This document shows, in pieces, positions 719-56,600 of a DNA stretch of 64,000 nt; position 1 is the stretch's first letter, and each line of letters opens with the position of its first letter. The translations under genes and the position numbers were made by a program. The stretch comes from Undaria pinnatifida (Eukaryota; Sar; Phaeophyceae; Laminariales; Alariaceae): the NCBI GenBank assembly GCA_012845835.1, contig JABAKD010000010.1:11298973-11362972 (forward strand), written 5' to 3'. The notes below the pieces were generated by a model. It was not told where the DNA came from. It did not search any database and saw nothing but the letters and a program-made list of their open reading frames with translations.

Positions 719-3700
719 GTGCCTAAAAAAATGCCCGCCGTTTTGGTTTGGTTTGGTTTGGTTTGGTTTTGCTTCGCTTCGTTCCGCTTCGTTTCGTTTC
801 GTTTCATGTTGGTGTGTTAGTACTTCTTCGGTCCGACCTTTTTCAAGCTCCCTTAACGAAAACGCCTCTTGAAGCGTGAGAGGTGTCCGGTAGGTCTGGC
901 AGGAGGAAGTCGGGAACGAGCGGGCGCAGGCCGCCACCGATGTAAGGTCCTTGTTCGGAAAAAGAGAGTGGTACTGTTTAAGGCAGCAGCGACGCAGCTC
1001 CAGCAGTGTGTGTGCCTTGCAAAGCCCGTGTGAGGGAAGGGAGTGCTGCTGTTTACAACAACAGCGACGGAGCTCTATGTAGCCGTGTGCTTGCTTTGCG
1101 AAGCCCATGTTGGGCAAGAGAATCCCGCTGTTTGCAGCAACAGCGATGCACCTCTAACAGTTTCATCCCGAGCAGCAGCAAACAACCGATGGCGCCGTAT
1201 CGCGGAATTCTAAAACGCAAAATCTTAACACAGTGGCATACCCACTTGTAAGACCACCTCGGGACAGGCCCTTTCAGTGGTCTTATTATCTCTATGTTTG
1301 GTCTTAATTGACTCCTTTGGGACCCGGTGGTGATGCAGACCAAAAAGATGACGAGCGTGGTATAACCAAGCGTCCAGGAAAAGCTTTATTGGAGACAACT
1401 CCGAGTATCGTCATGCCCACGCTTCGCCTCACAGCTGGCTTCCTGCGCTGCAGTTCGAACGAATGCGCTACACTATCAGCGCTTGGATTGCCTCATGTGG
1501 CCGATGCCGTAATCGGCAGTTTTTTTCAATAGGTTTCGTTTACTACTGCAAGAATGAACCGATACTAGTTCCAAGTAATTTGTTCTACAGGCCAATTAAG
1601 CCCGTTGTTACCTGGTCTTATCCACCTTGTAAGTCTTCAACCGGACTGTCCTAAAATTGGGTATGCCACCGTATTCATGTTTGCTAAGCAAGAGGGTAAC
1701 CACTGGCGCAAGCGGCCCTGAGCCGCTTAACCCCTTTAGAGCCCCAAAACCCCTTCCTATACTAATTCCAAATAATTTCCCCCCCAAAAACGGGTTTCCA
1801 GTTATATAGGCGTTGAACGCATGGCGCCCTAAAATTGACCTAAAATTGCGCTGAAAGTGCTCTCCTTATACTGCAGCCTTGGCACGGCTTCCGCGTGCAC
1901 GCTCTGGCTGGGCACCGCCCTTCCTCCAGGCGACCAGGTCGGCGTATGCATATGCGCGCGCCTTCAAGCTTGCTCATGCACGACTGTGAGACATACATGT
2001 ATATTACTGTGGTGGAGGACAGGGTACGTAGATACCGCCAATCTCCGACCACACATGGCAACCATGACGGCGCGTTAGCCATGTCTGTGGAATCTGCCAG
2101 CATTAATGAGTGTTCTTAATTGTTTGACGTTCGGCAGTATCAACCCCGAATGCAACGGGGAACCCCAGGGTCCTCTACGAGAACGGCCCAAGCTCCCTCA
2201 TATCAGTCTATGAAATACTCCCTCGCGTAAGGCGAGAGAGGTTTGTGACGGCGTCTCCTTGCCCCATGCACGGAAGAATCGGGTCTCGGCCTCGGCCAAC
2301 GCCCGTCCAAGACCAAGACAAGGCCGACTTCATCGGAGGAGGCGATCTTCATAATGATCTCATTGTCGACGATGACATCATTATGAGAGGTCACCTCCTT
2401 CGATTAAACCGTCTTTGTCTTGTTTGTTGGACGGGTGTTGACCGAGACTCACTTGTTCTTTAGTACATGTAGCAAGAAGGTGCCTTCATACAAGCCTCTC
2501 TCGCGTTAATCGAGGGGAGATTTTATGGATTGACATGAGGGAGCTTGCGCCGTTCTCGTAGAGGACCCTGGGTTCCCGGTTGCGTTCGAAGATGATATTG
2601 TCGAACGTCAACCATTGAGAAATATTCATTATTGATGGCAGATCTCATATAGATCCGGCGTTGGTGAACGCGTCTTCATAGTTTGGCATGTGTGATCGGA
2701 GATTGACGGACTCTACGTGTATCCCTGTCCTCCACATGCCGCCGCATTCTCCGGCGTGATTATTTTGGTCAAACTTTTGGGCGTACCCTGCACGGGCCTT
2801 CTTTTTTTTTTTTTGGCCATCGACTGACCGCCTTGCTCTCCTTTGCTCGGCCCTTCGTTTCCTGTGCCGTGCCGCCGTCTTAATTTTCTGGCCGCAGGGG
2901 TGGACACCAACAAACGATATCGAAAGCGTGGTTGTACAAATTCGCGCGCAGATGGTGGTGGGGAAAGCGCGGATCGACTTCGACGCGAACTCCGTAACGC
3001 AGGTTGAGCTAGCTCACTGTTGAAACAATTACAGCAGTAGGCCGCATGTGTGTGTGCTCATTTTCGTCCATTGCCGTAGTCGCGTGCCGCGGGGGGGGGG
3101 AGGGGTACTCAGTTTAGGCATGGCCGTAGTCGTATGACCATAGCCCCTCGCACCCCCCAACTATGCCGGGACGGAGCACGTCGGGTTTTCACCAACCAGG
3201 CAGGCGACATTGCTTGCACCAAGCCAAGCGCGAAGCGCCGTGAGGTGTCCAGCGAGTCGCATGAAAGGTGAACCTGCATCCTTCCAAGAACCGCTCGTAA
3301 GGGGAGGGGGTTTTAACAGAAGAGGCGTTCTGTGGTAGGAGTTAACGCGTGTTGTGACAGCGGTGGCACTTTTCGGCTGAACCTTTTTCTGAACGACTGG
3401 GTGTCATACAGTAGGGGTGCCACAGCACGGCGGTGGCGTGCCACAGCAGCATGACCGCCTTGTTCGAACCAGCCGTCTTCTGTTTTCTAAAAATTTTCTT
3501 CTAAACACGTCAGCTGCGAGTTGGATAAGTTTAGGGCCGATACTCGTCTCGGAAAAAGCTGCGTGATACACCGGCCGCTCGCTTGTCCTACGGATGCTGT
3601 GAGGGTGAACATCAACAGCATTTTTTTATTCGTTCCCGGTTATATGAGTGCAATTCCCCTGGTCGCGCCAAGCGATTTTTGACCACCTCATGAGTCATAT

Positions 3701-5621
3701 GTCGGGATACCGCCTTACTCAGACCGCCTTGTTGGAGGACCCATGCTTGTACTGTAAATGTAAAACCCAAGCCGTCGGATTTTTTTCGCGTTTTTTTGCT
3801 TCATTTTTGTTTCGCGAATATGTTTTCGTTGTATACCTATTATGATAGGGCATAAGATCGTTCCTATGATAGGGCATGAGATCGTTCGCCGGGTCCCGAA
3901 CGCTTCTTTCTTTTTTTTTTACCAAATCAGATTTTGGGTGAGAGGCGTAAGTGTATTTTCATCAAGCCGCCACCCTCGGAAGGGAAAAAAAAAAAAAAGA
4001 GCCGGTCCACCTCTCTGCCGTAGCGTGTGTCGGTAACACTTTCTTGCCTAAATATTCGTGACACAAAGGGGCGGCTCCTTAACGCTGTCACTGCTGGAAA
4101 CCTTTTCGGGTACAAATTTTCTTGAAGTTAATATAGGGTGGGATTTTGGGGCTCTAAAGGGGTTAGCGGCTCCGTAACGCCGTCACTACTGGAAACCTTT
4201 TTGGGCACAATTTACTTGAAGTTAATATAGGCAGGGATTTCGGGGCTCTGAAGGGGTTAGGGGTTTTAACCCCTTCACTACTGAAGAACTTTTTGGGGAC
4301 AATTTTACTTGAACTTAATATAGGGAGGGATTTTGGGACTCTAAAGGGGTTAGGGGCTATTATAACCCCTTTAGAGCCCCAAGAACCCTCCCTATACTTA
4401 TTCCAAGTAATTTCACCCCCCCAAAAAAATGGGTTTCCAGTTGCAAAGGCGTTAAGTGGGGAACTGCCCAACATTGTTGAATTGCCGCATGTATTTTTAA
4501 TGCATTAATATACTGTGGTTTTGTTCTCGAAGACGGTGAGATTATTCGTCGGGGTTTGCGCCCATCACAATTTTCTTAACTCCTAGTAGAGCTCCCAAAA
4601 CCCCTCCCTACACTAATTCCCGGGACTTTTTCCCCCCGAAACGGGTCTCCAGTTGTGAAAGGCGTTAAGGTCGGTGTTTGGTGTAAGAGCTATTCGAGTG
4701 AGGAGGGTCATAAGTTCTAGGTGCATACCGGTATCCCCCCCTCTACCGTAGCTTGCGTCTGAAGGCGATATCTGAGAGGGTATAATAAGAGAGACACGAG
4801 AGATGGAAGGCTTTTTGCGGACGGCAAAGGTTATGTGTATGTCGCGCTTGGGGCGCCCTAACGTATGAATGGCCGCATCTAAATGCTCTTCATTCTTGTT
4901 TTCTTTTTTTGTGGGTGTGTTTAGTTTGTTTGTTTTTGTGGTCGCGGCTTAAAAGCGGTAGGCGTTGCGCGGCGTTTTTTTTTTTTGTTACATTTTTTGC
5001 CTCGTGCTGCCATTTTTCCGCCGAAAAAGGCCGATACCCGCTTTTTTTTCTTGTCGTTTATTCTGTCTGCTTTCCACTTACCTGTCCCCGTTCCCCTTGT
5101 ATGGCCCCTTTACCCTCCTCTGTCCCTTTTCCACTTGTATGCCCCCTTTGGCCTTATCTGTTTGCTTTCCCCTTATCTGTCTGCTTTCGCCTTAACCTCT
5201 TTAGAGCCCCAAAGTCCCTTTTTATACTAATTCCAAGTGATTTTTACCCAAAAACGGGTTTCCAGTTGTAAAGGCGTTAACTGTCCGCTTTCCCCCTGTG
5301 TGTCCCCTTTCACCTCACCTGTCCCATTTCACCTTATCTGTCTGTTTTCCCCTCATGCGTCCCCTTTCCCCGTGTCTGCCCCCTTTTCCCTTTATCTATT
5401 GTTCCTTTTCCCCTTGTCTGCCCCCTTTTCCCGTTATCTATTGGTCCATTTCCCCTTATCCGACCCTTGTTCCCTTTGTCTGCCCCCTTTCCCATTGTTG
5501 GTATCGCCCTATCCCACTGCCCTTTTTTTTTCTCTCGTCTCAGCCTTACTCGGAAGACCGCGCGAAGGCTGCCTTCAAAAGCGCGGCGAAGATTCACAAG
5601 TGGGCTATCTCGGATCCGTAG
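545..5621 (+). CDS. UBE2Q-like ubiquitin-conjugating enzyme E2, 3' part (three exons; 5' end outside window)
   Basis: E2 enzymes carry ubiquitin as a thioester on an active-site Cys and pass it, usually with an E3, to target lysines. The exons join as 545-718, 2898-3002 and 5544-5621, all in phase 0, giving 118 C-terminal residues and a TAG stop. The first exon shows the UBE2Q signature DDYPFSPPFVRIVYPRF and then GAFCMELLTNQ, whose Cys is the family's catalytic residue. The second exon gives GWTPTNDIESVVVQIR and GKARIDF, matching the conserved family segment after the Cys. The last gives EDRAKAAFKSAAKIHKWA, matching the closing helix of the family. No HPN tripeptide is visible before the Cys, as I recall for UBE2Q proteins. 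The N-terminal region must lie left of base 1. Confidence in the family is high because three separate exons match in order. Confidence 0.87.
1726..1815 (+). repeat. ~95 base dispersed repeat (CCCTTTAGAGCCCC family)
   Basis: Reads TTAACCCCTTTAGAGCCCC, then CCTATACTAATTCCAA, then an oligo-C/A block, ACGGGTTTCCAGTTAT and AGGCGTT. The same order of blocks recurs at about 4075-4450, 4570-4675, 5192-5281, 30898-30990, 50502-50596 and 59574-59730. Confidence 0.7.
2009..2735. repeat. Long near-symmetric foldback (inverted repeat) element
   Basis: The two halves are imperfect reverse complements over almost their whole length, about 360 bases per arm, centred near 2371 (ATTGTCGACGAT). Matching pairs include GGTGGAGGACAGGG at 2011 with CCCTGTCCTCCAC at 2722, GGGTCCTCTACGAGAACGG at 2169 with CCGTTCTCGTAGAGGACCC at 2551, and CGAGAGAGG near 2231 with CCTCTCTCG near 2493. 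It lies in the intron between the catalytic E2 exon and the next one and ends about 160 bases before that exon. It has no transposase or long ORF. A foldback transposon or a long-hairpin RNA source are both possible. Confidence 0.75.
2898..3002 (+). CDS. UBE2Q-like exon following the catalytic cysteine
   Basis: Acceptor GGCCGCAG before 2898 and donor CAG|GTTGAG after 3002. It is 35 codons, phase 0 at both ends, reading GWTPTNDIESVVVQIRA then GKARIDFDANSVTQ. The Gly-Trp start directly follows the LLTNQ end of the previous exon, as in UBE2Q proteins. Confidence 0.85.
3117..3306 (+). repeat. SINE-like repeat, GGCATGGCCGTAGTC family
   Basis: About 190 bases: GCATGGCCGTAGTC, ACCATAG, TGCCGGGACGGAGCA, GTCGGGTTTTCACC, CAGGCAGGC, AAGCGCGAAGCGCCG, GCGAGTCGCATGAA in fixed order. 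Related copies lie at 6728, 14178 (reverse), 15231, 19088, 37078 (reverse) and 50048 (reverse). Several follow a G run, as this copy does at 3089-3104. Confidence 0.7.
4075..4455. repeat. Cluster of CCCTTTAGAGCCCC-family repeats, with a hairpin
   Basis: Three reverse-orientation copies start near 4078, 4172 and 4275. The last is followed head-to-head by a plus copy at 4359-4453. The final pair forms a hairpin with arms of about 90 bases centred near 4357 (GGGGCTATTATAACCCC). It lies in the last intron of the E2 gene. Confidence 0.65.
5070..5540 (+). repeat. Pyrimidine-rich degenerate tandem tract
   Basis: Repeated blocks of the type CCCCTTGTCTGCCCCCTTTTCCC recur about every 34 bases. The long ORFs through this tract are simple translations of the repeat. 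The tract leads directly into the acceptor of the last E2 exon and supplies its polypyrimidine stretch. Confidence 0.55.
5192..5281 (+). repeat. CCCTTTAGAGCCCC-family repeat copy
   Basis: Contains CTCTTTAGAGCCCCAAAG, TATACTAATTCCAAGTGAT and ACGGGTTTCCAGTTGTAAA in the family order, upstream of the last E2 exon. Confidence 0.65.
5544..5621 (+). CDS. UBE2Q-like terminal exon with stop codon
   Basis: The acceptor is a long pyrimidine tract ending TCTCAG before 5544. The exon has 26 codons including TAG and reads PYSEDRAKAAFKSAAKI then HKWAISDP. It matches the C-terminal helix of the E2 family in position and character. The tail is shorter than in animal UBE2Q proteins. Confidence 0.8.
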   Translation, partial: PYSEDRAKAAFKSAAKIHKWAISDP

Positions 5622-18800: not shown

Positions 18801-21800
18801 CAAGAAGAGTAGTTACCACTCTGCAAGAGTAGTTACCACGCTCTAAACGAAAACATTAGGACCGCGTTTTCGTTTTTTAACATGACTGCACCAAACGGTC
18901 GATGTTGGTTTCTCGAAAGCGTGTGTGCGATGGGCAGCGCCTGCTGCAGGCTACCGATTTGAACGTAAACCTTTGGACATTTTTTCATTAATACTATGAC
19001 TACCAAAAGGGCTCTACATCTCTGTTCCGATTGCTATTTTTAGTCTGCAACACGCACAGGGGGGGGGGGGGGGGGGGTGTACTAGATAGTCATGCATGGC
19101 CGTAGTCTTAAGACCATAGACCCTCGCATTCCTACGATGCCGGGACGGAGCATGTCGGGTTTTCACCGACCAGGCAGGCATTACTTCCTTCCACCAAGCG
19201 CGAAGTGCCGTGAGGTGTTCGGCGAGTCGCATGAACGGTGAGCTGCATCCTACAAATAACCGCGTGTGAGGCGGACCTGCATATGGGTGACAGCTTCAAT
19301 GAGTTAATAAAATTTCCGGTATGCCTCCTTTCAGAGGAGGGGAGTCTCACTTGCGGGTTAAGCTCTGTAGGGCTGCCTTGAGAGATTTCACCTCCGCTTC
19401 TAGTTGAGCCACACGCACCCCTTTCGACTCCGCCGCCTCTCGATATCGGAGCGCCTGGCTTGCGTTGATACACAGTTTCGGCACGCGCAAAGAAATACAG
19501 GATGCACTGTTTTGCCGAGACAAGGCTAATAAGAGCAACGGGCGTAGCCATGCAGTTCGCGCGAAGCAACGAAGGGTTCATTTGTTTTTTCGTCGAACAA
19601 AGCCGGGAGCAACGGGCGAAGCGACATACCACACGCAGGAGCAAAATGAACACAGGGTGTGATGCACTGACTTGCCGTCGAACAAGAGTTGAGAGAAAAA
19701 ACTGGCGAGCCCTTTCGAAAACCTGTCCGAGGGCATGATGCTGCTCGATCGTGTACACGCCAACGCTCATGCAAGACGCTTTTTCGGTCTCAAGACGTTT
19801 GCAGATTGTCCAGGCATTGTTTGCATCCAGGTGTTGGCGGTCATCCTGACGTTGTTTGCAAAGCCTACGTTTCGTGTTGCGAGGCCAACCGACGCTACAC
19901 ATAATAAAGCCACCAGAAAACACGCTGAGACCTGGTCAAGTGACCGACATCGACATCAATTTTTCAGTGGTGGAAACCCTGATAGTGCCAGCATGTGCCA
20001 GCCAACAATAACGGCAGCATACGGGACACCGGCACTATTAGCTATAGTATCGATGCGGTAGTGTAGCGCAGCAGGTTCCGATCGTGTCAAGCGATTTTAC
20101 CGGCACTATACCAGCAGTAGGCACTTGTTCAACCCGCATTAGACCGGCAGTAGGCACTGTTCAACCTGCACTGTACCGGCAGTAGGCACTGTTCAACCCG
20201 CACTATACAGGCAGTAGGCACTTGTTCAACCCGCATTATAGCGTCAGCAGGCACTGTTCAACCGGCACTATACCGGCAGTAGGCGCTGTTCAACCCGCAC
20301 TATACCGGCAGTAGGCACTGTTCACCACGCATTACACCGGCAGTAGGCACTGTTTAACCGGTACTATACCGAGAGTAGGCACTGTTCAACCGGCACTATA
20401 TCAGTAATAGGCACCGCTGAACCCGCATTATACCTGCAACAGGAACTGTTCAACTGGCACTACCGGGAGACCCCCATTGCTATCGTATCCACGTGGTTGT
20501 GTTGACGCAGAGACAGCCATGCATTGTTGCCGATCAAAAATACTGCTGTAACATTTCGCCGACGCTTCAACTCTTGTATAGTTTGGGATCAACGAGGACT
20601 CTCTGCTGCAATCAGCCGGAGACTCTCACCCAGGGCTACTAATCCCGCGTTGATTCGATGGTAGTCAACGCGGCACCTCGTCGCAGAGAGCAGTTACCCC
20701 GGTGAAATAAATACTACAAAATATAACTGATGTCGTTGTCGGCGTGTCTCGCGCACAGTGATGGGCGGGCGGGATGGTCTGTTTTCCCTAACCGCTTCCT
20801 ACTCTCTCTATCTAGCTGCTGCACGGGAGCCGACGATGCAAGTGGGATCGTCATGCTCTTTCTGTACAGCTATAAGGCTTTTCTCCCACCCGGGGACGTC
20901 CTTCTTCCGTTCCCGGGGTTTTGCTCCGAGATTACGTTTCCAACAGATCAAGGCTACGTGCGATAAAATTCGATTAAAACCGACGAGCGTTTCAGGAACG
21001 CCGGTCCTCTGCGCGATACCAATTGAAGGCACGCATCAGGGAGGGAAGAAGGGCCGACCCCCTGTGACCATGCCTTGTCCAGTAAGCGGGAAAGTAAAAG
21101 CGAGATTGGAAAAATAAAAATAAAAACGTAGCGGGGGATCCCTCACTCCTTGGGGCCACGATAGCGCGAGTGGCTACCTCATGCGAGTGGCTATCTATGA
21201 AAACATTCGTTTCGGCTGGGCTATGAATATGCTTCGAAGCACGCAAAGAAAACACGTTGGGATCCCCGTTTCGAGCAAGGTAACCAAGCCGCGCTCACAA
21301 GTGTCCGAATATCGGAAAGAGGAAATTTAAATGCGGATACCCCCCCCTGCCGGCTTTAGTAACCCTATTAGAACCACACCCTTGCCTTTGGGAACGAAGC
21401 ACATGGGGTTAGTCCGGGTTAAGGAAACGTTTTCAGTTCTATCGGGCTCAAGCCCATCTGCTGCTGCTGCACCTGTTGCTTCGCCGAAGCCTCGGCCCGT
21501 TGCAATCGGTCGACCGTTCCGCCGATGACCGCTTTTCTGGTCGACGCCCTCCCCGTTATCTCCGCCTCCGCCGCCGTCAGCTGACGTCGCAAAGCAAGGA
21601 CCTGGTGGAGCAGGGAAACGTTTTTACCTTTACTGCACATCGCCGAGTAATGGGAATGCCGAGCGAAGCTTCTTCAACGGTAGAAATGAAGCTATGTACC
21701 CGGAGGGAGAACGAGCGACACCTGTAGCCACGGTTTGTCCAGAAGATGGGAAATAAAAAAAGTCGTTCTGCGGCAGCCCCTCCCACTTTTATTTGAATCG

Positions 21801-24800
21801 CTGGTTTTGAAACCAGCTCCCGGCCGTATCTCCTGAAATGCTGTGCCTCTTGCCACCCCGACGTCATCGTTCGATAGATATCATAGTACTTTGCGAACAA
21901 GAAAATGGATTACAATACATTTTTTCATAGCATCCTTCCTCGTATCGAGCAGCCATGAAACGTTGTTGAAAGAAAATCGCCGTTTTTTTCGAAGGGGGGG
22001 GGGCTATCGTAGAGTCAGTCAAAAGTGACGACTGAAAATGGGCGAAACAAATAGATAGGCAGTACAACTTCGGGTCGCGCGCTCGTACGGCTAAACGCAA
22101 GAAGCTTCGGGCAATCGCACCTCCGGGACGGAGAGCACGGTCACGGATACATGCGCCACGGAATGCGCGCGGTCGAGGTTCGCTTCCGACGCGGGAGGCA
22201 AAAGTTAAGCAGAGCGTAGTGCCCGCGTCACCGTTGTGGGGATGACGGGGGGACGAAGGGTTCCACTTTCGACTTCCTCGTTGCGAAAAGGCATTGTTGA
22301 AGATTTCGACTTGACGGCCGTGAAACATGCGCAGTTGCGGTCGTGTTCGAACGCCGACAGGCGGCCGAATCCATGCAATGGCAATCCGCGGAGGGATGAT
22401 CAGGGTTACCGGTTTCCCTAACGCTCTAGAAGGCGGGCAGGAAGGCGAACTGGCGTTGATGCCACCACAGACTACCACCGACCCCCACTATTAGCATGCA
22501 GTGGGCATGGAGGGTAATCGGTACCACAATACACTCCTTCCGGGTGGGAGAGGCGGCGAGCCATAGCATGGACGACACATCTAGGACGACACATCTGGGG
22601 ACGTTCTCATGGAACACGTGGGGCGAAAATCCGCGACCGTCACACCCAGATACGTAGGCGTAGCAGGGTCTGCAAAACGAGGCGGGGGTCAGTGGTGTTC
22701 TCGTGAAACGGCGTCCATAGACGCAGAGGTCTGGCCGCTGTCCGAATAGTTTGCAAGTTCGTGGGCAGCACCCCCGCGGGACAATCGAATCCAGACCCAC
22801 AAGTGACCAGGATGTGAGTTGGTGTGAAGATGCGGCCTCGAAAGGCCTGAATTTATCCGCATTTAAGATTATAAGGTTGGCGTTTTTATGTTCGGGATAG
22901 TCAGGAAATAGATCGGAGGCACGTGCCTCCGATCTCAGAAGTCATCCGGGGCTCTGGTGGAATCGCAAAAAAGCTGCGTCGCCACGAAGGCCAAGAAAGC
23001 GAGCACTCTCCGAGGACCTGCTCAATTTGGCAGACCTCCAGGGGACACTCTGTGTCCCCGCCCAATACTTCTACATTGGGGTGAAATATGGACGGAGAGC
23101 AACTCGTCGAAAGGACCAAGGCTAGAGAATTGTAGTACCGTATCATACCGTATCATACCCTCTTACTGCACTACCGGTCTGTCTGAGCCACTCGCGCGAA
23201 CGGCTCTCCCCATTGCAACAAACCTTTGAGGCGATTAGGTTGTTGCGGCGTAGCTAAGCTTTCCCCGGCGGTGTCATGGCGCAAGCACGAAAGCGTTAGA
23301 TCGCAACTCGCGCGAATGAGCCCGGCCCGCTGAAGAAAGAGCCCCCGAAAGTGACACCGTTAACCGCGGCATCGAGAGAAGGGGGGAGGAAGAACCAACA
23401 AAGCGTGGGTGTGATTTCATGCCGCGGCAGCGAGGCGTCATTGATCCTAAACTACACGCTGACCAAACCGACGTCGAAATGTTACAACAGTGATCTCGGA
23501 GCCAAAAGACGGGGACGAAAGAAGTGGGTCCCCGGGGTCGGAGACACCCCTCCTGTTGCGCAGACGAAGAGAGGTGGAAAAAACCCATCTTGATCGACCC
23601 TTACAACACCACAAAAAAACAAGATGAGAAGATGTTAGGGAAAAACAGACCATCCCGCCCACCCGTCGGGTTCGCGAAGGTCGCGGACAGCGACATCAAA
23701 TTTTTAGCAGTATTTGTTTTACAGGCGAATCAACGCAGGGGTAGTGGCCCTGGGTGAGAGTTTCCGGCTGATCGTAAGCAGAGAGGTCATATGAAATCAC
23801 ACAATATAATACGGATTAAAACCGAGGACGGAATGTTGCAACAGAAACTTCGGGTTTGCTGGATTCGTGCCGATGGTATAAAATCTTGTCGCAGCAGTGT
23901 TCATCCGTGACCGCCGCTTGTCCAGAAGGTCGCTGAGGGTAAACACCTCTTACGAGCTGAGTAAAAAGCGAAACATATACTGAAGTATAGTATATATATG
24001 TGCCTAAAGGGGACCCGAACCCGGCAAAGCGACGGCATACCCCCGACATACGCAAAGCGTTTTTTTTTTCAAATGTGTAAAGACCGGGGTAACAAGAACA
24101 TTACACCGGTACATAGTCCTCCATATTGTCCTTGCTTGTCGTTGTCACGCCCTTCGATGTCCTGGCTATGTGGGCTGGCAGATTTGTTTGGTTCTCTCGA
24201 GAAAATTGGGCACCCTTTATGCCCCAGCGAACATCGCTTGTTCTGCAGGGAGGGGGGGGAGCGGGGTTGTTATGGGGAGGGGGGGGGGGAGGGGATGCAC
24301 GGGTTGGCGCAACGCACCTTTCCATTCTGCAGCCTGATCCTTCGACGCAGGTCCTTGTTTTCCGTGTGCCACTTCTGGAACGTTTGCAGCTGCCGCCGAA
24401 ACTCCTTTCCCTCTAAGGCCGCCAAGTTTTTTTCTCGTCGAGCGTTCTTTCGGCACCTTGCGGCGGCAGAAAAAAACAAAACAAAACAGAAAAACAAAAA
24501 AATAATATCCAGAAGGGTGTACGGCTGAAAAAATTCCCCCTGTTCAGCCTTTCGCTCCGATGACGGTATTATACGCACTAGAAAATAGAAAACGTCGCCC
24601 TCGGCCCCGCTGGAAGAAGTTTGGCGTGCAAATGACGCGAAAAGCAACAGCCAGGAACGTCCGCTCTCGGGGGCGGCATGGCATGGTAGCCCCGAGTTTA
24701 TTGGCTGATTTCGTTCCCCGCGTGAGCAACAACCTCGCTTCTTGTCACCTACGGATGTCGATCGCTGTTTTTTTTTCTCATCTTCCTATCTATGCTTCAA

Positions 24801-30800: not shown

Positions 30801-33800
30801 TGCCGTATTATACAGTAGAGTAGAGTACAGGAGACGCTTGCTACGTACCGTATTGGTAGAATTTTTTTCGCCTTTTTTTTCTGAATGACGGGGGCCCTTA
30901 ACGCCTTTACTGCTGGAAACCCGTTTTGGGGACAAAATTACTTGGAATTAGTATAGAGAGGGGTTTTGGGGCTCTAAAGGGGCTAACCCATTTCCAAGTC
31001 CTACTTTTTTTCCTAGTCTAACTCCAAGCGTTTTTGTCCCCCCCATGTATGTCCCGAGTGCGGTGCTAAAACGGTTAATCCAAAAGTGTCAGAACGTGCA
31101 TTATTTTTGTTTCGCGCACTCACTGCTGTATTTTGCTTTTTGTATACCTAGGCCACCATCCATCATGGGTGGGGTGTGTCCATCCTCGGCTTGCACTTTT
31201 CAGTTTACTCAAAAAAAAAAAAAATGCCTGTAGTGGGCGTGAAGCTCCTCAATCAAGAAGTCACCCTCAGGAGGCAAAAAAAAAGGGCGCACCTCTACTG
31301 CTGTATGTATGTAGTAGTGCCCGCCAGGATACCCAACTATTACGGGGGACCATAGTAAATAGGACCTACGGTACACACAAAAACCAATATATTTCCCTAT
31401 TTTGACCAACAATATTTGGTCCTATTTACTATGGTCCCCCGTAATGGAAACAGGAAACAACGCTGACAAACCCGGACAGGGTTTTGCTACGGAGTGTACA
31501 CGGTTTCATAGTTCGGGAGAGGCTGCGTTCGACACTAACTTCACTATACAGCGGCTCCCGGATTCATGGTATTATTGCTGTAAATACCAGCCCGCCTTTC
31601 TTAATACAGCAGTAAGTACCCTGTTTCTTACTGTCAGGCGTTGCTGTACTGCTGTAATGTCAACACGATATATATGACAAGTAGTAAGTGTGTGCCCCTT
31701 GTCTTGCATGAGCGCGCCGTACAACAAGCTGTATTGACAGGGTACGAGCATAATGCAGCGCGCCTGTCGCAAAAGTCCGTGCGTTGAACATCGAGCACTT
31801 TCCGTCAATATCTTACTGGAGTTACCCCTTAGACTAATCGCTGAGGTATAAAATGGATGCAGTCAGCGCTGACGGCACAGCTCAGCGATTATTGTGTATC
31901 TGAAATATAAGCACAATGTTAAGATATGGTCTCAAAAGGCACGTAATTATCTGAATTGAGATAATTTGGATGGGTTTCATATGATAAGGTTGCCGTTTTG
32001 TATCCGGGATAGTCAGGACGTAGATCGGAGGCACGTGCCTCCGATCTCAGAAACCATCCGGGGCTCTGGTGGAAACGAATAAAAAGATACGTCTCTACGA
32101 AGGCTAAAAAAGTGAGTACTCTCCGAGGACCTGCTCAATTGGCAGACTTGCAGGGAACACTCTGTGTCCCCGCCGAATACTCTTACAATATGGCGTCGTC
32201 GGCAGGGCACGAACCTGCGCGTGAAATCACAATGGGCTTCCTGGCTACATAGCCAGACCTTTAGAGGTGTGGGAGTGAGTTTTGAGGAGCAGCATCTTCG
32301 CTCATGATCTAGTTCGTAGAGCCGCAGTTTCCCCGAATCTTCCATATTTCTGCATATATATGCGGCTCATCAGGGTGGGCTAGTGTTAAGGTACGGCCTC
32401 GAAAGGCCTGTAATTATCTGAATTGAGACAATTTGGATGGGTTTCGTATGATAAGGTTGGCACTTTATGTCCGGGATAGTCAGGACATAGATCGGAGGCA
32501 CGTGCCTCCGATCTCAGAAGCCATCCGAGGCTCTGGTGGAAACTAATAAAAAGCTACGTCTCTGCTAAGGCTAAAAAAGTGAGAACTCTCCGAGGACCTG
32601 CTCAATTGGCAGACCAGCAGGGGACACTCTGTGTCCCCGCCCAGTACTCTTGCAACAATGCGGGGCCCACCCGGCGGAACAGCTGTCGTTCGTCTCTAGT
32701 CTAATGTATTATAAAAATAAAAATACACTCCAGCTGTGAGATCGAAGATTTTGTCGAAACTCATCTTTGCAAGCTGTGTGTGATACCCCGATCGCGCGTA
32801 TTGCGGGTTGTGTGTCCTCATTAAGGATATAGGTCGGCGACTCCCCTTGCAACTACAGTGTAGCTATCAGGGTCAACAGGGTAATGTTGGTCAGTCTGTG
32901 CGCGGAAACTATAAAACCCGTTTTTGAGGGGGGCAAAATCTGACAGCTGTGGAAGGAAATGCATCAGTTTATCAAGTGAATACTACTACTGTAAGTCGAA
33001 TACCTGGTGAGGGGAGGGCGGAGTTTTTAAGGACGTGGCGGGCTGGGTTTGGTCAAGACGGAGCGGGCGGGGGGGGGGGGGGGGGGGGGAGCGGGGCGGC
33101 TCAATCTGTGCGTGGAAACTATAAATCCTTTAAGGGGATAAATCTGACGGTTTTGGAAAGAATGCGCCAGCTTATCATGGGGGGGGGGACGGGACGGGCG
33201 GGGCGGCTCAATAAGTGCGTGGAAACTATAAATCCTTTAAGGGGATAAATGTGACGGTTTTGGAAAGAATGCACCAGCTTATCATGTATATCCTGTTAGT
33301 CGTACAACCAGTGAGGAGAGGGCGGAGTGTTCGAGGGGGTGGGGGTGGGGGTGGGGGAGAAGGGGGGGGGGGGGGGGGGCGAAAGGGTTTTTTAAACAAC
33401 ATCTTTAGGTCGCATACAAGTAGGGGTTGCTATACGCGTGGTGCTAGGTCTAGGCGATGGTGTGGGTGGTGGGGAAGGAGGGGGCGTTGGGGGGGGGGGG
33501 GGGGGGGGGGGGAATTGCATTAGCGGCTTGGATGCGTCTCTAATATATCTAAGCCGACTGCAGAACTCAATGGCCATGGTGTATCTCTACTATTAGTAAA
33601 GCACTATCTGAGGTCCATTATGGTGTGCCTCTAATATACCCAAAGATACCCTGCCTCGGCCGCCCGGGCTCGTTGGTATATTTGCTGACGCTGTAATCGG
33701 TAGTCGACACTTTTTTTCCGGACGTGTTTTCCCTCTGTAAAAAAAGCACAGCAGTACTTCAAGACGCCTTTCTATCATAAGAAATACGAAGGAATGCTGG

Positions 33801-44616: not shown

Positions 44617-47600
44617 GTGTGTCGTCCCTGCGGAGCCGGAATTGATATTTCATTTCTGCTCGTTGTTGCACTACTCTGCTACTACGTACCAGGTACAGGG
44701 TACTACTGCTGTATCATGGTATGCGGTACATGAGCAGTACGTAGCGGTAGGTCGATTCTACTGCTGCCACAGTTGTGCTCTGACAGAGTCTGCGTGTGAG
44801 GTAGCAAGAACGGTTGACAGCGCCCAGAGTGATCCTGAGCATGTGATTGCTCGTTGCATTCAGCAGTACCTGGTAGTATAAATAGACGTCCGTACGATTC
44901 TGCTCATACGCGGCACGAATATCATGTATAATCACAGCGAAGCGAGATGGCAAGAACGTTTGAAAGCGCGCAGACTGGCCCTGGACTCGTACTGCGCTGC
45001 AGTGTGTTTGTGCACTGCACTCAGCGAACCGTGCTTCGTTACAACGCGCTAACGGTCTAGTCTAACGATGTCCTCATCACACCGCGAGTGCTACATTCGT
45101 GGGCTCCTTGTGGCGATGAGAAAAGGTGGTGACGACTGCTGTTCTCAACACAAACCCTCGTTCCTCAGTGCGGCGAAGCTTATCAGCTGGTTTTTCGTGC
45201 AGGAGTGTTATTCATAAACCTAATACAACTGCAGCGCTCGTCAAAGCTATCTCAGTTGCTGCACGCAACGTCGAGGTTCCTCGTCCCCCCCCCGCAGCAT
45301 CTTCTGCTACCGGCAACACTCCTGGACATTTATGGCTTACGGCACTCTCTATCATGCATGCACCAAACACCGAACAACCACACAATGGCATTGCTTGCTT
45401 CTTTACCCCTCCCTCCCCCGCATTTTTTCTTGTGCAGCAATGGCTACCGCCGCATCTGCCACGGCCAGTACCGCCTCCGAGGCGATGGCGCCTATGAGCG
45501 CTCTCCAGTGCGCAAAACAGCCCAAGCTGGAAGGATATAAGATGTCGCGCGGTGTAGCAAACCCCAAGCCTTCTACCGTCGCCCGGCACCGAAAGACGGG
45601 CGGCGTCGCGGTCAAACAAGAAGCGACGGCGGCTGTCGTTCAAAAAGAAGCGACAGGGGCGGTGGTAAAAAAAGAAGCGGCGGCAGTAAGGCAAGGAACG
45701 ACGAGGGCGGTGGTTAAACAAGAAGCGAAAGCGGCGCAGGTAGACGGGCCGGTATGTTCTCGGGGAAGTCAAGATAACGCCTCAAAGGGAAACGTCGTGA
45801 AACGCGAGAGGAGGCGTGTGGGCGATGCCCGGGTCCAAGGGCCGAGCAGCCCGAAGACGATTAAACGGGAGAAGGTGGTCGTCAAAAAGAGCCCGAGAAA
45901 GGCGGACAGCAAGGTCAAGGTCAAGGCCGAACAAAAGGGCAGGGGTGGGGAAAATGCTGGTCGGAAGAAAATTTCGCCGCGTTTGGCAGAGAAGGCGGCG
46001 CTGATCATCAGCGTAATGGACGCCCTGTACCCCGACCCACCCATTCCGATCAACCACGTGGTGAGGGTGTCGAGGGGCGAGCGTCACGACGAGAGAGAGA
46101 GAGAGTCGTCTAATTGTCCCGCGAAAATAAATACGCGTACGGGATTTATTTTTGTATGCGCTCATATTATATGCGTGGCAGTTGTTTTCCTCTTTCAAAA
46201 GCTCGTCATGTCGTCAATTTGTTGGTGGACCTCCTTTATCGCTCGTGTTTTTCGTTTGTCGTGTGTTCGTCAGGGGCCATTTATTCATGCCCTACGGGTG
46301 GCGAGCTCTAGTTACAGCAGCATGAACAATGAAACTTGTGCTTTAGGACATTTCGGCTTCACGACTGGGTTCCAAGACAGGGCCAAAACCCTAGAGGAAA
46401 CCCTTGGAATCCCCGCGTGTCCTGAAAGACAAAAAAATCGTTGGGCGAGCTCGTCGTCGTGCGTTTTCTTATTTTCCCTTCCTTTCTTGCTTTTCGTTTT
46501 TCACTGTACCGAACGCAGGACAGCTTCACGCTGTTGTGCGGCGTACTCCTTTCTGCTCAAACCACGGACGGACAGGTGCGTGCGGCCTGTTCTTCATGGT
46601 GGCGTGCAACGTGGGGCTTTGGTTTTGCGGCGGGCTGTTTCGGTTTTGGTTTAGTCTCGCTCTGTTTTGTTTCGTTTTGTTTTGATTATTAATAGCAAAG
46701 CGTTTTCGTGGCGACGTGCAACATGGGGCTTTGCTTCGCGACGGGTTGTTTCGTTTTGGCTTAGTCTCGCTCTGTTTTTTTTTTTTTATTGTTTGTAAAG
46801 TGGCACGTAAAAAATGCTGCTTGCTCTCGACCGTTTGCGTAGGGGGGCGCCAGTCATCGGCTGCCGGCGCAGTTGATACATGTTGTGTCGGGACTATCCT
46901 AAGCACGAAATTGGTTGCCAAGGCTATCGGTCTTTCTCTCCGACGTGCGAGGACCATCGACGGCTGCTACGGTAGCTGCTGCCATCTCTCTGGCAATCAC
47001 ACCCCCAAGAACAAGTCGGCGCAGTAGTCAACCAATCGACCGAACAATGCCCTTAATCCATCGCAACGAACAACGGTCGGTCGACTCCCTTACTGCCGCC
47101 ACCGCGCCGACCCACCCCGAGACGCCCCGCCACGCCCCGTCTCGGCACTGCCGTCTGTTGCCACCACAGGTGAACGAGGTGACCAAGGAGCTTTTCAGGG
47201 TGGCACCAGACCCGCTGTCTTTGTCCAAGATGGATCAAGAAAACGTGCAGCGAATCATCAGGCATGCACAGACGATAAATAGAGCCACGTCATGTTCCGT
47301 CCACCCGCGCCGGTTGACGTCGATTTCGCGGTTGTCATAGCATAGCCGCCGGCTCGCAAAAACCACTCAATGGCTTCTTCTTTTTCATAGTTCTGCCACT
47401 GCTCATACGGCCTGCACGCGCGCACGTATGCAAGCATTTTCCCGTCGCGTCTAGGACGCTGCCCATACACGAGCGACCCCTAAAACGGGTAGACGTATGT
47501 TCGGAAGATGGGAAGCAAGTCGCGTCTCCCATTTTGACGGATTGCGAGAAAGCTCCGGCGGCGGCCCCTGTCGTCGGCGAAGTATGGCCGGTGTGCTCTG

Positions 47601-50600
47601 GTTCCCTCTTGTCGCTGGGTAAAATGTCGGTGTAGTTGTGTTTCCGATGTATTGTTCAAGCGTTAACTTTACGGTTTGTTGCCTTTGGTTCCGCCCTAAT
47701 CGATGATCGACGGTGTCGCTCGCTCGTCGGTTTCAGGTCCGTCGGCCTCGCCCCCACAAAGGCCAAACATTTGATCGCTCTGTCGCAGCAGCTGCTGGAG
47801 CGCTTCGATGGTCAGGTTCCGGACACGTTTGAGGGTCTACAAAGTCTGCCTGGCGTCGGTGAGCTGATATGAATACCCGCAGCCCTGATATAAATACCCG
47901 CAGCCCCGCTTCCGCCCCCCCCCCCCCTCTTCTCCCTTTCACGCGAAGTGCATCAGCGAGCGATTCGCTGCGTGTGCAGGTAAAAAAGCTTGTGGCTCGA
48001 AACACGCAGGTATTTGGACTCTTCCCCTCTCCCCCTCCCCTCTTATTCTCTGCTATTTCTGAAGTACTTGCACGGGTAGTGCATCAGCGAGCGATGCGGT
48101 ATGATACATGTGTGCCGGTTAGAAAGCTCGTGGCTCGAAACAAACAAACAAACACGGATTGTTTTTTTTTTCAAGTGGCCGAAGTATCACGCAGCTTGCA
48201 AATTTGAGTATCGATCACTCAATCAACTGGTCGAGCTCACAGCTGACGTATTTTAAATGGCTCAATAATATATATATATATATTGTAAATCTGTCCACGC
48301 CGTAACACAAACGAGCTGAGTTTATCATTTAGAAACGGTTCACATTATCGTGGTCTTTTCTACGTCGTCAAAACGCAGAAGCTGGTATGCTCTCGCTGAC
48401 AAAGTCGACTCCAGGGGTGAACACGCCGGCCTCCCCGCGAATCCCGAACGCCTTTTTTTTTGTATGTAGTCATAAGATGAGCACCTTTTGTTCTCAGTTA
48501 GCTCGTCAGGCGGCGCAGGCTAAACGGCACCCCGCCTTGAAAAACGCCCTCGAACCAGTGGAAGGGCTAGAGTGTTTGCTGTAGCGCCATCCCACAATCG
48601 GGGGTTGCACTTTTGGAGCCAAAAAAAGGTACACCTTCTGACCGGTTTAGCTCCTGTAAGTTTGGAACTATCCATTAGTATGATACCTTTTTACGAGTTT
48701 ATTTGTTTTAGGACTACTACGAGCGCGCAGAAATGTCGGTCAGGGTTGCGCGAACGAATGTCTTGGAAGGCATGTTTCGGGTGATGTTGATATTGACCCC
48801 CTCGCGTCAGCAGGAGCCCAGGAATTTTCTGACGCACTCCTATCGCGAGATGGCTCTGTATTGGCAAGTCGTGTTGCTTTTTTTTTTTTTTCTCTGGGTG
48901 TGTAAACCTGTTTCCTTTCTGGATGCTCGGTCGATCAGCGGGAAAGGGTGGATGGATGGATGGATGGTTATGGTTTTGGATGGACGTCAGATGGAGTGTC
49001 TTAAGCTACCTCTAAGGAGCATTGGAACGGCTGGAATGGACATTTTTTTTTGCCTCAGTTAAGACACACCCACCCTGGGTCTGTCTTTCGTCTGCGCCTT
49101 GTATTTTTGTTTTTTTTTTGTGTTCGCCTGCTGGGGATGTGCCGCTGCTGTGTGTAGGGCGGAAGACAGCGGCCGTGGTGATGGTGCAGGCTTTCGGGGT
49201 CCCCGCTTTTCCGGTGGACACGCACATCCACAGGCTCGCACTCCGGTGGGGGCTCACGAAGAACGATAAGAACACCAACAAGTGAGAGAACGGAGGATGG
49301 TGGTGGTGGTGATGATGGTGATGATGGTGGTGGTGGCGGTGCTAATCTTGGTATTGGTGGTATTGGTGAGTGGCGGTGATGATGGCGGTGGTGATGGGCG
49401 AAGGGGAGTAGTGGTGGATGGTGAATGGTGGCAGTGGTTGTGGTGGTGGTTGTGGTGGTGGTGGTGGTGGTGGTGGTGACTTTCCTTAGGAGTTGCAAGA
49501 GGCGCGCTTTTTATCGACGTCAATTGTTTCCTTTCCTTGTGGATTTTTGGTTTGAATAAGGCTCCTCTCACCACTGCTGTCATGTGCGCTGCCTTCATCA
49601 GTGTTGTTGTTGTTTGCTGGTGGTGGTGGTGGTGGTGGTGGTTGTGTTGCCGATTACCACTACCCAGGGTAAAGACAGAGCAAAAAGAGCTGTCGATCCC
49701 TGGGTGGCTATCTCACCTTCTTGGTTGAACCGTATAGGGATCAGCCAAAGAAGGCCGGCAAGTTCATAGTGTTGACTAAACCGGAGGGGCGAGGTTGACA
49801 CAAAGTCTGCGTTCTGCAGATGGACGAAAACTGGTACACAAACGAAAGTGTATGGAGCTTAAGCTTTTTTTACCCGGATCCCCAGGAGGATAAAAAAAAA
49901 AAAAAAAAAAAAACACGGGACTTTCCAGAGGAAACCCAACGACGAACAACCACGAAAGAGGAATTTACGCCAAGTAGCCGGTGGGACGAGTAAGAATGAT
50001 AGCTTTTGGGACGGGCGGTTCCACGCCACCCCCTTGCGATTCTAGGCAGGATGCAGCTCACCCTCCATGCAACTCGCCGAACACCTCGCGGCGCTTCGCG
50101 CTTGGTACAAGCAATGCCTTCCTGGTCGGTGCAAACCAGGCATGCTCCATTATGACATTACAGAGATGCGAGGATCTAGGTCATGCATGATAGGAGTACA
50201 CCCCCCTCCCCCCCCTCCCTTGCCGACCCCCACCCTCTCCGCCCGCCGCCCTCCGGCCGCGTTTTGTCCCGTCGACAGAGTGGAAGATGACCTTAAGTCG
50301 GCTTTTCCCAGAGATTCGTGGGCAAAGCTGCACCTGCAGTTCATTTACTTCGGTCGGGAGCACTGCCAGGCGAGAATTTTCTGCGCCTCGACCTTTGTCT
50401 TGTGCACCTGCTGGCTGTACTGTTCCGCCTAGTCTTTTTTCGACGCATGCCTTCCGCGGTAGGGGCGCACTGGCCCTTTTTTTTGCCTTCTGAGGCTCCT
50501 CACGTAACCCCTTTTGGGACCCAAAACCATTCGCTATACTATTTTCAAGTAGTTTTGTCCCCAAAAAATGGGTTTCCATCTGGAAAGGCGTTAGGGAACT

Positions 50601-53600
50601 CTATGCCTCACCCAAAAAACTGATTCAAACAAAAAAATTAAAGAACAAAAAAGTGAGCACTCCCCTATCGGCGAAAATTGCCATGGCCTTAGGTTAAAAA
50701 ACGAAAAAAAATGACATTTTCGATGATTGTGGGGGATTCAAGAGGCCGGCCCCTGGCGTGCTTCAGAAAAGAAGAGAAAAAAACAGGCCAATGAGTGTTT
50801 TCACCTTTATCGTATGTAGCACGCTTTTTATTTTTTTCTTGTACTTTATTTTATCGTTACCGTGGTCTCAGTTGTTTCTGTTGTTGCCACACCTTTCGCA
50901 AGCTAAGGTAGGAATTTACCTATACTTATTCTGATGCTCCTCTTCTGCTTTGTTTTTTTGTTTTTTTGTTCTTTTCCTTTTTTTTTCAATCATCGCTTTT
51001 ACTCTCCGGCTCAAAACTCGTGTTTTTTGTTTACTTACACCCTTCGGCGACCTCCTGGACAAAAGCCGTGGCCACGGGTCCCACAGGCTCCTTCCCTTCT
51101 CCCCCCCCCTGGGGCACTTGCCTTGGTTTTTATCGCGCATAGGGTTCATCAGCATTCTCCACTTTCCAGCTTTTATTATTTTATGCTCGTCGACTTTTCG
51201 TCGAGTCGTTGCCAGCTCTACGGTCTCGCGCTTACCGCTCGTCGTGTTTTTTGAAACGCAAGAAACAAGTCCCTGCAACAGGTACATACGAGCACGAGTA
51301 TGTACTCGGTGACACTTGGACCCGCGCGACCTTGGCGTTAGCAGAGACGAGATTCACCTGCTGACTCGTTCTACGGTACCCCCCCCCCCTTCCCCCCCCC
51401 GCCCCAACTTTTCTTTGACGAAATCGCCGGTTTTGACACCAGCCTCCGGCCGTATCTCCTAAGCATACGGTGACTCCTACCACCCCGACGTCATCGTGTG
51501 ATAGTCCTTTGCAAGCTAAAAAATATATGTCAAGAGATTTTTTTTCGTAGCGTCCTTCCTCGTGTCTAGCAGCCATGAAACGTTCGTTGAAGAAAACCGC
51601 CGTTTTTTTTTTGGGGGGGGCGGGGGGGTGTTATCGTAGAATCAGTCTGATGGTGGATGATGGATGATGGATGATGGATGATGGATGATGGATGATGGAT
51701 GATGGATGATGGATGATGGATGATGATGATGATTTCAAGCCCCTCAAGTTAGGAGCTCGGAAACTTCTTAGAATCTGCTGCATCCCCTAGCCCCTGGGGT
51801 GACTCTAGGACGGTCTGGTCGGTTAGTATGACAACCCCGTAAGGTACATCTGCATTCTTGTACATAGCATTGTTCTCCAGTTGTCACGGGGCGCTCTTAA
51901 TTTTTTCTCGGTCAAAAAAGGGCTGCAGCTGTTGGTACCCCGGTTTAAGAGCACCCCCCGTGCAACAAGCCGAAACAATGCGCTCTTGACTACGAAGCGC
52001 TCTTACCCGCAGTGGGAAATATGTAGCCTTTAGCGTGGCGGGACAAGCCGAGTTGGCCGCTCTTAACTCCCGAATGCTGTCAACTCGGGTGCTCTTAAAG
52101 CGGGGTAGCCACTGTAGCCCTAGATCGCAGCAAGCGCCCTCCTCCCCCCTTCTGTGCCCCTTGTCGCGTGGACTCTGACGATGGATGTCGTGCGCGATCC
52201 GTTCGGGAGACGCGTGTTGTTGCCATGATAGATGTACAGGGTCAGATGTAAAATCGCCACCCGAAAAACGGTGAAAAGTTGCTTGCGGCGGCCATCGCAC
52301 ACGTGCACGAAATGCATCAAACCAAGGCTACAGCAGTATGAGGGTCACTTTTGAGGGCCTCTTACTGCAATGGGACACGCCCGCTGCGGTAAAAAAGGTG
52401 TACCGTTTTTTTTCCTTGCCTTCTGAGGGTGACTGCGTGGGGAGTGCTCTGTCCCACACCCCCCAAAAAAACGGTGTTTGGTGAAAAAATGAATGTGGTG
52501 TACTCGATGAACAAGCCCATGGCGCCTAGCTCTACTACTGTAGGTATACACCGAAGCACATTGCCGGACAAACAAAATGGCATTTTTTTCCGACGAATTT
52601 GTGGTTAAGAATCGCCGTCATCCAGACACCGTTTTAGCCAAAAAGAGGTATACCTTATTCCTCTATCGAAGCACGCGTCATGGCTAGGTGTCACTGCGGG
52701 GCGAGTGCACCCCCCCCCCCCCGCTCCCGGGTTCCATGGCGGTCTTAAGATTCCGTCCCATTTTGTTTGGCGATGGTGAAACCGCTACGGAATGGTTGAC
52801 TCTGCGCCAAAACTTCCTTTGCGCGGTTCCGTGCCGTTTTTGTTTCAGCGATGATGAAACCGCTACGGAATGATGTTTGACTCTGCGCCAAAACTTCCTT
52901 TGCGCGGTTCCGTGCCATTTTTTTTTAGGGATGGTGAAAGTGCTATGGAGTGATGGTTAACTCTGCGCAAAAACTTCCCTTGAGATCCTAAGAGTCCATG
53001 CCGCTCTGTTTTGTCGATGTGAAACTGCCGTGGAATGGGTTAACTCTTGCGCCAAAACAATCACCAACCTGAAACGTGTCTGCAGTGGGGCGTCTTGCAT
53101 TGTTGTGGTTTTTTAAAACCATGGAACTAACGACTGATTCTACGATAACCCCCCCCAAAGACCAGCGTTTTTTTTCCCTTAACGAACGTTTCATGGCTGC
53201 TCGACACAAGGAATTATGCTACAATGAAAAACACATGTCATGTTCCTGTATTTCCTCGGTTGCAAAGGACTATCGAACGATGGCATCAAGGTGGCAAGAG
53301 ATGCCTTATTTTCAGGAGATACATACGGCGGGGAGCTGGTTTCAAAACCGGCGGTTTTCGGTAAAAGGAAAGTTGGGGGGGGGGGGGGGGCGGGGCTACC
53401 GCAGAACGACTCTAACCCCATAAACCTTAACCTTAACCCATACGAAGTGCCGGTCGAAATGACCCCTGGTGACATCGCTGGGGTGCAATGGCTGGAAATG
53501 TCTCTAGACCAAAGCTACGGTAGAGGAGTGCGTCCCTTTTTTTAGGGATCTTTTTTTTCTTTTGCGGTGGCGTAGGGTCACTCGCTCGGGCGAGTGGCCC

Positions 53601-56600
53601 ACCCCCCCCCTCCCTTTTCCTTTCGTGCTGTGGTTGGGATGTTTCGATGTGAAACCCTTGATGGGATATGGTTAGCTGCGTTGCGCCAAAAGTAACCACC
53701 TGACGTGTTTTTCGTCCGCGAGGTACAGAGTCACTCGTTTCGTGCGAGCGTGATGGTATATGATAGTACATGATAGCTCAAATCTATTCGTGAAAAAAGA
53801 GGGTAACCCCCTCGCTCCCCAACAATGTGTATCGCTGAGAACCAATGGTACGACAGGGGAAGTTCCTTTTCGGGGGCCTTTTTTTTGCAGTGGATAAGGG
53901 TCACTCGCGCGAGTGGCCGATCCCCCCCCCCCCCCCCCCCCTGTTCCTTTCTGTTTTTTTTTCTTCTTTCTTTTCTTTTTTTCTTAATTTCACGACAAGA
54001 AACCCCAATGGAGGGTGGTGGTTGTCTACGCTTGCGCCAAGGAAAATTGCCTCGAGTGGTTTCGTCAGTGCGGTGCTGAGAGTCACTCGTGCGACGGGTG
54101 ACAAGCGGGGAGTGGAAAATGGGATATTTGATTGCTACAAGACCGCAGCGTTTGGTCGCCCTCGTCTTTGGGGACTAACAAACGACTTGAAATTTGTGTG
54201 GGATCGTTTTTTTGCGGTCGGAAACCGATGGAGAAGACTGGCTGTGTCTGGTGCTATCTTTCGTTCATTCGTTCGTGATTTGCCTGGTTGCCTGCTTGTC
54301 TTGCTGCTGGAATGGAGAAAAGCTGTCGGTTCCAGGTCGCCTGCTTGCTCTCGCGACGAGGACCTCTCACGGGCATCCATCCATTCATCGCTTTTAGGGC
54401 GCGTTTGTTTGGGGGGTGGACGATAGCCCCATTCCCCGTCGCAAAGTGTTAAGATCGCGCACTCAACCTCCTGACCGCACCCAAGGCTCGCCACGCCGCT
54501 CCTAATCCCCCCCCCCCTCCCTCCTTCCTCCCCTCCGTCTGTTTGCACATGACTATTTCTGCTGATCGCATCCACGAACGGCATGATCGCCCCCCCCCCT
54601 CCCTTTGATACACATGAGTATTTTGCTGATCGCATCCAAGAACGGTGTGATCGCCCCACCCCCCCTTCCCCCCTTTTGATATACATGAAAGTTTTTGCTG
54701 ATCACATCCACGAACGGCATGATCGCCCCCCCCCCCCCCGCCCCCCCCGCCCCCCCCCTCCCCCAAGACATCTGCACCTAACACGTGCGCACCCACGGGC
54801 TCATCCTTTTTGTTTTGTTGTTGTCTCGGGAGTGCAGGCTCGAAGCCACGACCCCAAGACGTGCCCGGTGTGCAGCTGGATTACGAAGGTGGGTCAAGGG
54901 TCCAGGAGAGGATTGCGGACGGGAAAGAGAACGTTTCCCCCCCCCCCCCCATGTTTTGCTCACGGCGGTTGGATTGTTCCACCCATTCTCGTGTGCTGAC
55001 ATGACAGTCTTGGTGACGTGCTGGTAGCCTGCCGGGGAGGTGGGGGGGAAGGTGGGGGGGGGCGTAGGCACTGAGGAGTCGCGGCGTCTGCCCCGCGAAA
55101 GAATTCCCACAAGGTTGCTTCCCGTGCGAAAATGCGTTTCACTTCTCGTGTGCCGTCGACGCCATTTGTGAATCGTACGTTTTTTTTTTTTATTGTCTAT
55201 TTTATTTTTGTGCTCATCCGATCTACAAATCTTCGCACTATTCACTTTTCTTTCTCCGTCCCCTATAGAGTCGCTCTGCGGTAGCCCCGCCCCCCAACTC
55301 TTCTTCAGAATTGCCGGTTTTGATCCCAGCTCTCGGCCGTATCTCCTGAAATGCGGTGCCCCTTGCCGCCCCGACGCCATCGTTCGACATATATCATAGT
55401 CCTTTGCAAGCACGACAATGTTCGAGGATGCTTTTATCATGGCACCCTTCCTTGTGTCTAGCAGCCATGATTGATGATGAAACGTTCGTTCAAGAAAATC
55501 GCCGTTTTTTTTTGGGGGGGGGTATCGTAGAATCAGTCTATAGACACAGCTCAGATCCCAGGTCACTAAAGCGGGCTCTTCTTCCCCCTCCCTCCCTCCC
55601 CACTACGGTACGTGGCTATATATGTTTTTTTCTCGTTGCGAGAAAGGCTTCCGCCCTGTTCTTCCCCTCGTCGACTCGCCTCGAATTGCGCCCTACCCAC
55701 CCGCTGCAGGGCGCTCTCAGCAGTTGGTTCCTTGACCCGCGCTACGGGAGAGGTGCACTGGCTCTTTTTTTTCCTTCTTTCACCCAAAAAATGTTTTGTT
55801 TTGTTTTTTGGTAAAACTGGGAGTGCAAATCGATCGGCTGGACTCATGGCCTATGGATGTAAAAAACAAGCATTAGTATTTTGCTCTGCTATACAAGACC
55901 GGCATTTCTGATGATTTGGGGTTGATGGAGGGAATGAGGGGAGTCCAGTCAATGCAGATTTTTTTTTTTTTTTCTTGCCGCCAAAAAGTGCTATACTACC
56001 TCCATCGTGGCACGCGTCCTTATTCTAACAAGAACATATTATCAATACGTAGTCAGCTGTGAGTTCGATTTCCTTAGGGCCGATACTCATCTTTTGCAAG
56101 CTGCGTGATACACCGGCCGCTCGTTTGTCCTACGGGGTGCTTATGGCGTTGTTCGGTTCACTATTGAATACTATGTTTTGGCATGCGACACGCGTCTCCT
56201 TTTGTCTCTTGTCAGACTGGTTCTGGCGCCCCGAAGGTGCTATCGGATCTGAGCTGCCTCCGAGACTACTTGGCCAGCCCGACACCTCCCAAAAAATCGA
56301 GCAAGAACGCAATCGTGTACAGCGAGAGGTTGCTCGAGATGGAACAGGTACGTACGTTTTATTTTTTAAGCGCGTTTTTCTTCGAGACGCGTGAGTGCAT
56401 TTCATTTGCCGGCGTTTCGTTTATCGAGATGTACGAGGGCCCTTGGGAGGGGAGGAGATGCAGTGTTCGCGTGGCGGAAGGACGGCATGTCCGCTACTTA
56501 GGTTACGTTACCGTTGTGCAGTGATCATGCAGTGTTTTGTTTCGTCGTTTGGACGCAGCCCTAATTGATTCGTTTCCACTTTTTTTTTTGTCAGTGCGAA

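Follow-up and report, generated by a model that had tools for sequence, protein, structure and literature searches.

Does the long hairpin in an intron of an E2 gene of Undaria pinnatifida derive from a mobile element, from a rearrangement born in place, or from a locus that supplies small RNAs? It lies near the start of the stretch of DNA analysed here (64,000 nucleotides of contig JABAKD010000010.1, hereafter the window), and the original prediction had described it as a foldback at 2009..2735 with arms of about 360 bases. Long palindromes are usually unstable, and the structure of this one, its surroundings and the predicted behaviour of its transcript are considered in turn below.

Structure of the palindrome

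Alignment confirmed the foldback as an imperfect DNA palindrome of 724 bases, with refined limits at 2012-2735. The left arm (2012..2367, + strand) has 356 bases and a GC content of 54.8%, the right arm (2368..2735, - strand) 368 bases and 47.3%. The centre, which had been placed near 2371, was refined to a dyad between 2367 and 2368, where 0 bases separate the arms; immediately around it (2349..2386) two 19-base arms abut with 89% complementarity and a spacer of 0. The expectation of almost no loop was borne out as well, the minimum-energy fold of the + strand leaving a loop of 4 bases. Both ends of the palindrome are sharp: the 13 terminal bases on the left (2012..2024, + strand) are the exact inverse of those on the right (2723..2735, - strand), pairing at 13/13 positions, and the local alignment stops there. 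A search of the window with the left terminal 13-mer revealed no third exact match and two places with 2 mismatches.

In a global alignment the arms are identical in 281/352 columns (79.8%), above the 60% that the original prediction had set as its lower limit. The 71 mismatches comprise 44 transitions and 27 transversions, and 10 internal gaps take up 20 positions in all. Searched against the window by blastn, the region 2000-2750 matched itself in inverted orientation over 744 columns (75% identity with gaps counted, E 4.8e-134). The claim that the mismatches are spread evenly agrees with three permutation tests, all within chance: the longest matching run between the arms is 30 (p 0.07), the variance of mismatches in 40-column windows gave p 0.24 and the lowest mismatch count of any 45-column window p 0.10. 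The best conserved stretch of the arm (2159..2201, + strand; about 43 columns with 1 substitution and 1 gap) is accordingly not significant (permutation p 0.07 to 0.10). A search within the arms revealed no family of direct repeats. The runner-up among the full palindromes of the window (blastn to E 1) measures 106 bases (4305-4410) and consists of two inverted copies of a repeat of about 90 bases.

An assembly or chimeric-read artefact was rejected by inference, given that the flanks are unmirrored and that exons of one gene stand on both sides; the differences between the arms, 71 substitutions (44 of them transitions) as against 10 gaps, also speak against it. A coding origin of the arms was likewise rejected. 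The mismatches have no consistent codon-position excess (period 3, p 0.09), and at E 0.1 no Pfam match was obtained in the 5 scanned of the 17 stop-to-stop open reading frames of at least 40 residues that overlap the foldback, which disfavours such an origin further.

The host intron and its neighbourhood

The palindrome sits in a GT-AG intron (719..2898, + strand) of a UBE2Q-like E2 gene. By eye, the upstream exon ends at 718 (CAG/GTGCCT) and the downstream exon starts at 2899 (CCGCAG/GGGTGG), so that the foldback begins 1293 bases into an intron of 2180 bases and ends 163 bases short of its end. Joining the two flanking exons to a third near 5540 gave a protein of 119 residues, which matched human UBE2Q1 (2qgx) over residues 2-113 with E 1.1e-26; because of this match of the joined exons we consider the intron reading good. 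Taken alone, the first exon reached 16.6 bits against Pfam UQ_con, under the cut-off of 27, and neither of the other two exons had a Pfam match when taken singly.

Further upstream, the 3' end of an E2 intron together with the start of its exon occurs in three tandem copies (1-174, 179-349 and 465-617). By blastn the copies at 1-174 and 179-349 share 90% identity with each other and 77-79% with the third, which is the exon used in our E2 reading. Judged by eye, these two upstream copies resemble exon duplicates that have decayed, and each has an AG acceptor of its own.

The window is rich in other repeats, with 156 repeat pairs by blastn (E 1e-4). The family of about 90 bases (AACCCCTTTAGAGCCCC...) was seen by blastn in ten copies in both orientations (1726-1814, 4077-4165, 4172-4259, 4266-4352, 4363-4456, 4575-4669, 5191-5280, 30896-30986, 50505-50597 and 59642-59726). 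An element of 106 bases in two copies that are 86% alike (31340-31445 and 60274-60379) looks like a small MITE, and its copy at 31340-31445 has perfect inverted ends of 28 bases. Another repeat of about 270 bases has four copies (51363-51647, 53132-53414, 55266-55539 and 21761-22020); the first two lie in opposite orientation with about 1.5 kb separating them, and a larger element may have them as its long ends. Among genes, pieces resembling endonuclease III were noted in several exons, at 46005-46575 (by eye only) and at 49199-49273, the latter weakly matching Pfam HhH-GPD (18.5 bits vs a cut-off of 26.2). Pfam searches on 10 long open reading frames of the window returned only matches below the cut-off.

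Origin of the foldback

The best explanation, whose truth we judge to be evenly balanced, is that the foldback is an old, non-autonomous element of transposon type that was inserted in the E2 intron, decayed to about 80% arm identity and is now most likely inert. A transposon-type foldback fits because the ends are sharp, the symmetry is complete and no coding content was recognised in the 5 of 17 open reading frames scanned, and the many other repeats of the window (156 pairs, including the MITE-like element of 106 bases) were counted for such an origin. According to this model the element would consist of two long terminal inverted repeats that meet head to head without any interior, and its mobility would have depended on a transposase supplied in trans, which recognised its ends (GTGGAGGACAGGG...). 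After insertion into the intron and decay of the arms, it would today be inert and spliced away with the intron; within the pre-mRNA, about 300 base pairs would hold it in an imperfect duplex.

The divergence of the arms (K2P about 0.24) is in keeping with age, since it exceeds that of all 9 other repeat pairs of the window that were chosen for measurement (K2P 0.066 to 0.192); blastn also lists less similar pairs outside this choice, with identities down to 63%. Such high divergence would indicate either an old element or arms that were unlike from the start.

The lack of a target-site duplication and of a second copy in the window disfavours a transposon origin. At the exact ends no target-site duplication of 2 to 12 bases was found: the flanks agree at 0/2, 2/3 and 4/9 positions when 2, 3 and 9 bases are compared. 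Within 6 bases of the palindrome ends there is no direct repeat of at least 3 bases, duplications of 2 bases having been looked for strictly at the ends themselves. Such a negative outcome is ordinary: among 2000 random pairs of points with equal spacing, 352 were likewise free of a direct repeat, and the rest showed repeats of 3 to 10 bases by chance. Since chance repeats are so common at random pairs, only a long target-site duplication is detectable with confidence, and a short one could have been erased by age. By blastn, neither a second copy of the foldback nor a third copy of an arm was detected within the 64 kb window. Plasmid and phage records contained no match to the foldback, and viral contigs none to three exact patterns. 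Collections of bacteria, archaea, viruses and plasmids, where one would scarcely look for an element of a eukaryotic nucleus, gave a single exact match, of 21 bases in a Firmicutes MAG contig (L001). This match was dismissed as chance, the 21-mer itself having been the search pattern, and the rest of this contig of 5806 bases contained nothing better than E 1.9. An unusual foldback transposon, as the original prediction suggested, is possible and would agree with the sharp ends, identical at 13/13 bases, though neither a target-site duplication nor a second copy in the window turned up.

The same two absences, together with the zero spacer, favour a local inverted duplication, by replication slippage or fold-back repair, which arose within the intron, was never mobile and diverged later. 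The tandem exon-start copies at 1-174, 179-349 and 465-617 also indicate that the locus has been rearranged locally. What such an origin would not lead one to expect, for halves that were born identical, is the difference in composition between the arms (54.8 vs 47.3% GC): in 32/44 transitions it is the left arm that carries G or C (p 0.004; this comparison was picked once the data had been seen). We regard a local duplication as possible, if rather less than probable.

Two arms that had diverged beforehand would account for this GC asymmetry, and the K2P of 0.24 is equally compatible with them. Two members of one repeat family, diverged before they met, might have been brought head to head, as is seen on a smaller scale in the window at 4305-4410, where the repeat of about 90 bases forms an inverted pair. 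For the foldback, however, the exact abutment at the dyad and the matched outer ends would both require coincidence, and a third copy of the arm is absent from the window; such a juxtaposition appears unlikely to us.

Predicted transcript fold and small RNAs

If the foldback is transcribed with its host intron, as had been suggested, a long imperfect dsRNA would result. Folding supports this as a prediction: RNA of the + strand of 2000-2745 is predicted to form a single hairpin of -466.5 kcal/mol, whereas 20 dinucleotide shuffles of the same region gave a mean of -240.5 kcal/mol (sd 8.0; z = -28) and 0/20 folded as well. For 2009-2738 the predicted fold of the + strand has 309 base pairs, including 29 G-U pairs, at -465.8 kcal/mol, and that of the - strand 294 pairs at -435.0 kcal/mol. 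In the 5' arm of the predicted fold, 293/344 windows of 21 bases have at most 4 unpaired bases. The predicted transcript fold is a hairpin of the kind that is required of a miRNA or hairpin-siRNA locus.

The foldback might also function as a hairpin-RNA locus, in which small RNAs cut from the intron transcript regulate other genes. The strong predicted fold would agree with this, as would the advantage of the sense strand over the antisense strand by 30 kcal/mol and, by analogy, the miRNA loci of Ectocarpus, which are described as foldbacks situated mostly inside protein-coding genes (PMC4513859, in part). The strand difference, however, deviates by about 1.6 sd from what 12 neutral simulations gave on average (mean 3.5, sd 20.7) and falls inside their range (-38.2 to 29.0); these simulations, only 12 in number and gap-free, fold better than the real sequence (better-strand mean -519 vs -464). 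Transitions that keep a wobble pair on the sense strand number 27/44 (p 0.17), and no mismatch periodicity of 20-24 bases was found beyond chance (p 0.47 to 0.85). Selection on the RNA was rejected on these grounds, with strand asymmetry, wobble bias and periodicity all within chance, as is the spacing of the mismatches described above.

A search of the whole window against Rfam gave no match at gathering level. When relaxed (up to E 1), it gave five sub-threshold matches to miRNA families over the centre of the palindrome, the best being to mir-3118 (E 0.0017). This match can be counted for a hairpin-RNA locus, but it amounts to 28.9 bits vs a cut-off of 89, and matches of this sort are what any good hairpin would be expected to give. 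In view of the selection tests and the null result in Rfam, the long intronic dsRNA stays a fold prediction and is not taken as small-RNA evidence. The suggestion that small RNAs are made from the foldback was not sustained, with no Rfam match at gathering level, no mismatch period and strand maintenance within chance; we consider a regulatory hairpin locus very unlikely. That the foldback belongs to an interior-less palindromic family, dispersed through introns of this genome without target-site duplications, whose phased small RNAs, cut from host pre-mRNA, silence the transposase source of the family, seems far-fetched. On the favoured reading, that of a decayed transposon-type foldback, it acts at most as a passive passenger of the E2 gene, and none of the results points to an independent function.

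Comparison with known systems

Taken alone, the foldback carries little weight, as another inverted repeat in an intron. A family of zero-spacer palindromes of more than 700 bases, if one existed, would be useful, and it could show how arm divergence allows palindromes to persist. We do not file the foldback under any named family, since a target-site duplication, which is a defining feature, was not found.

Among small elements, the human MITE Made1 is present in many copies. In the portion of PMC1784062 drawn on here, this mariner-derived, non-coding element, the source of hsa-mir-548, is described as a near-perfect palindrome of 80 bases, in which 6 bases separate two 37-base repeats; its read-through transcripts form a hairpin. 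The Undaria foldback is also a palindrome throughout, with no coding content seen in the 5 scanned of 17 open reading frames; it differs in its length of 724 bases, in its zero spacer, in its arms, which are 80% alike, and in being single in the window. The original prediction had contrasted it, as a hairpin throughout, with most MITEs, which have short terminal repeats and an unpaired middle. That contrast is fair as a rule, but a full-length hairpin has its precedent in the palindromic Made1 (PMC1784062, in part). Palindromic MITEs are already known, and Made1 shows that they can feed the microRNA pathway (PMC1784062, in part).

Elements with long terminal inverted repeats offer a second comparison. 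According to the relevant part of PMC4168063, Galileo of the P superfamily has such repeats and target-site duplications of 7 or 8 bases. For Tm1 (Mutator/Foldback), the corresponding part of PMC3169594 reports long terminal inverted repeats, target-site duplications of 8-10 bases in 45/53 complete elements, and some elements without them; the repeat pairs of one element have a mean identity of 93.15% and are composite, with internal repeats. The foldback shares long terminal inverted repeats with both. In contrast to Galileo with its duplications of 7 or 8 bases, it has none, and it departs from Tm1 in repeat identity (80% vs 93.15%), in the internal repeats, none of which were found here, and in lacking the target-site duplications usual there.

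The closest analogy in position comes from Ectocarpus, for which PMC4513859, PMC12477816 and PMC12867755, each in part, serve as analogy only. There, 75% of miRNA loci are placed within protein-coding genes, principally in introns, and their foldbacks average 170 nt (PMC4513859, in part). The Undaria foldback is likewise intronic; it is about 4 times longer than this average and is known from its sequence and a predicted fold. Intronic foldbacks have been proposed for Ectocarpus as candidate raw material for new small-RNA genes (PMC4513859, in part).
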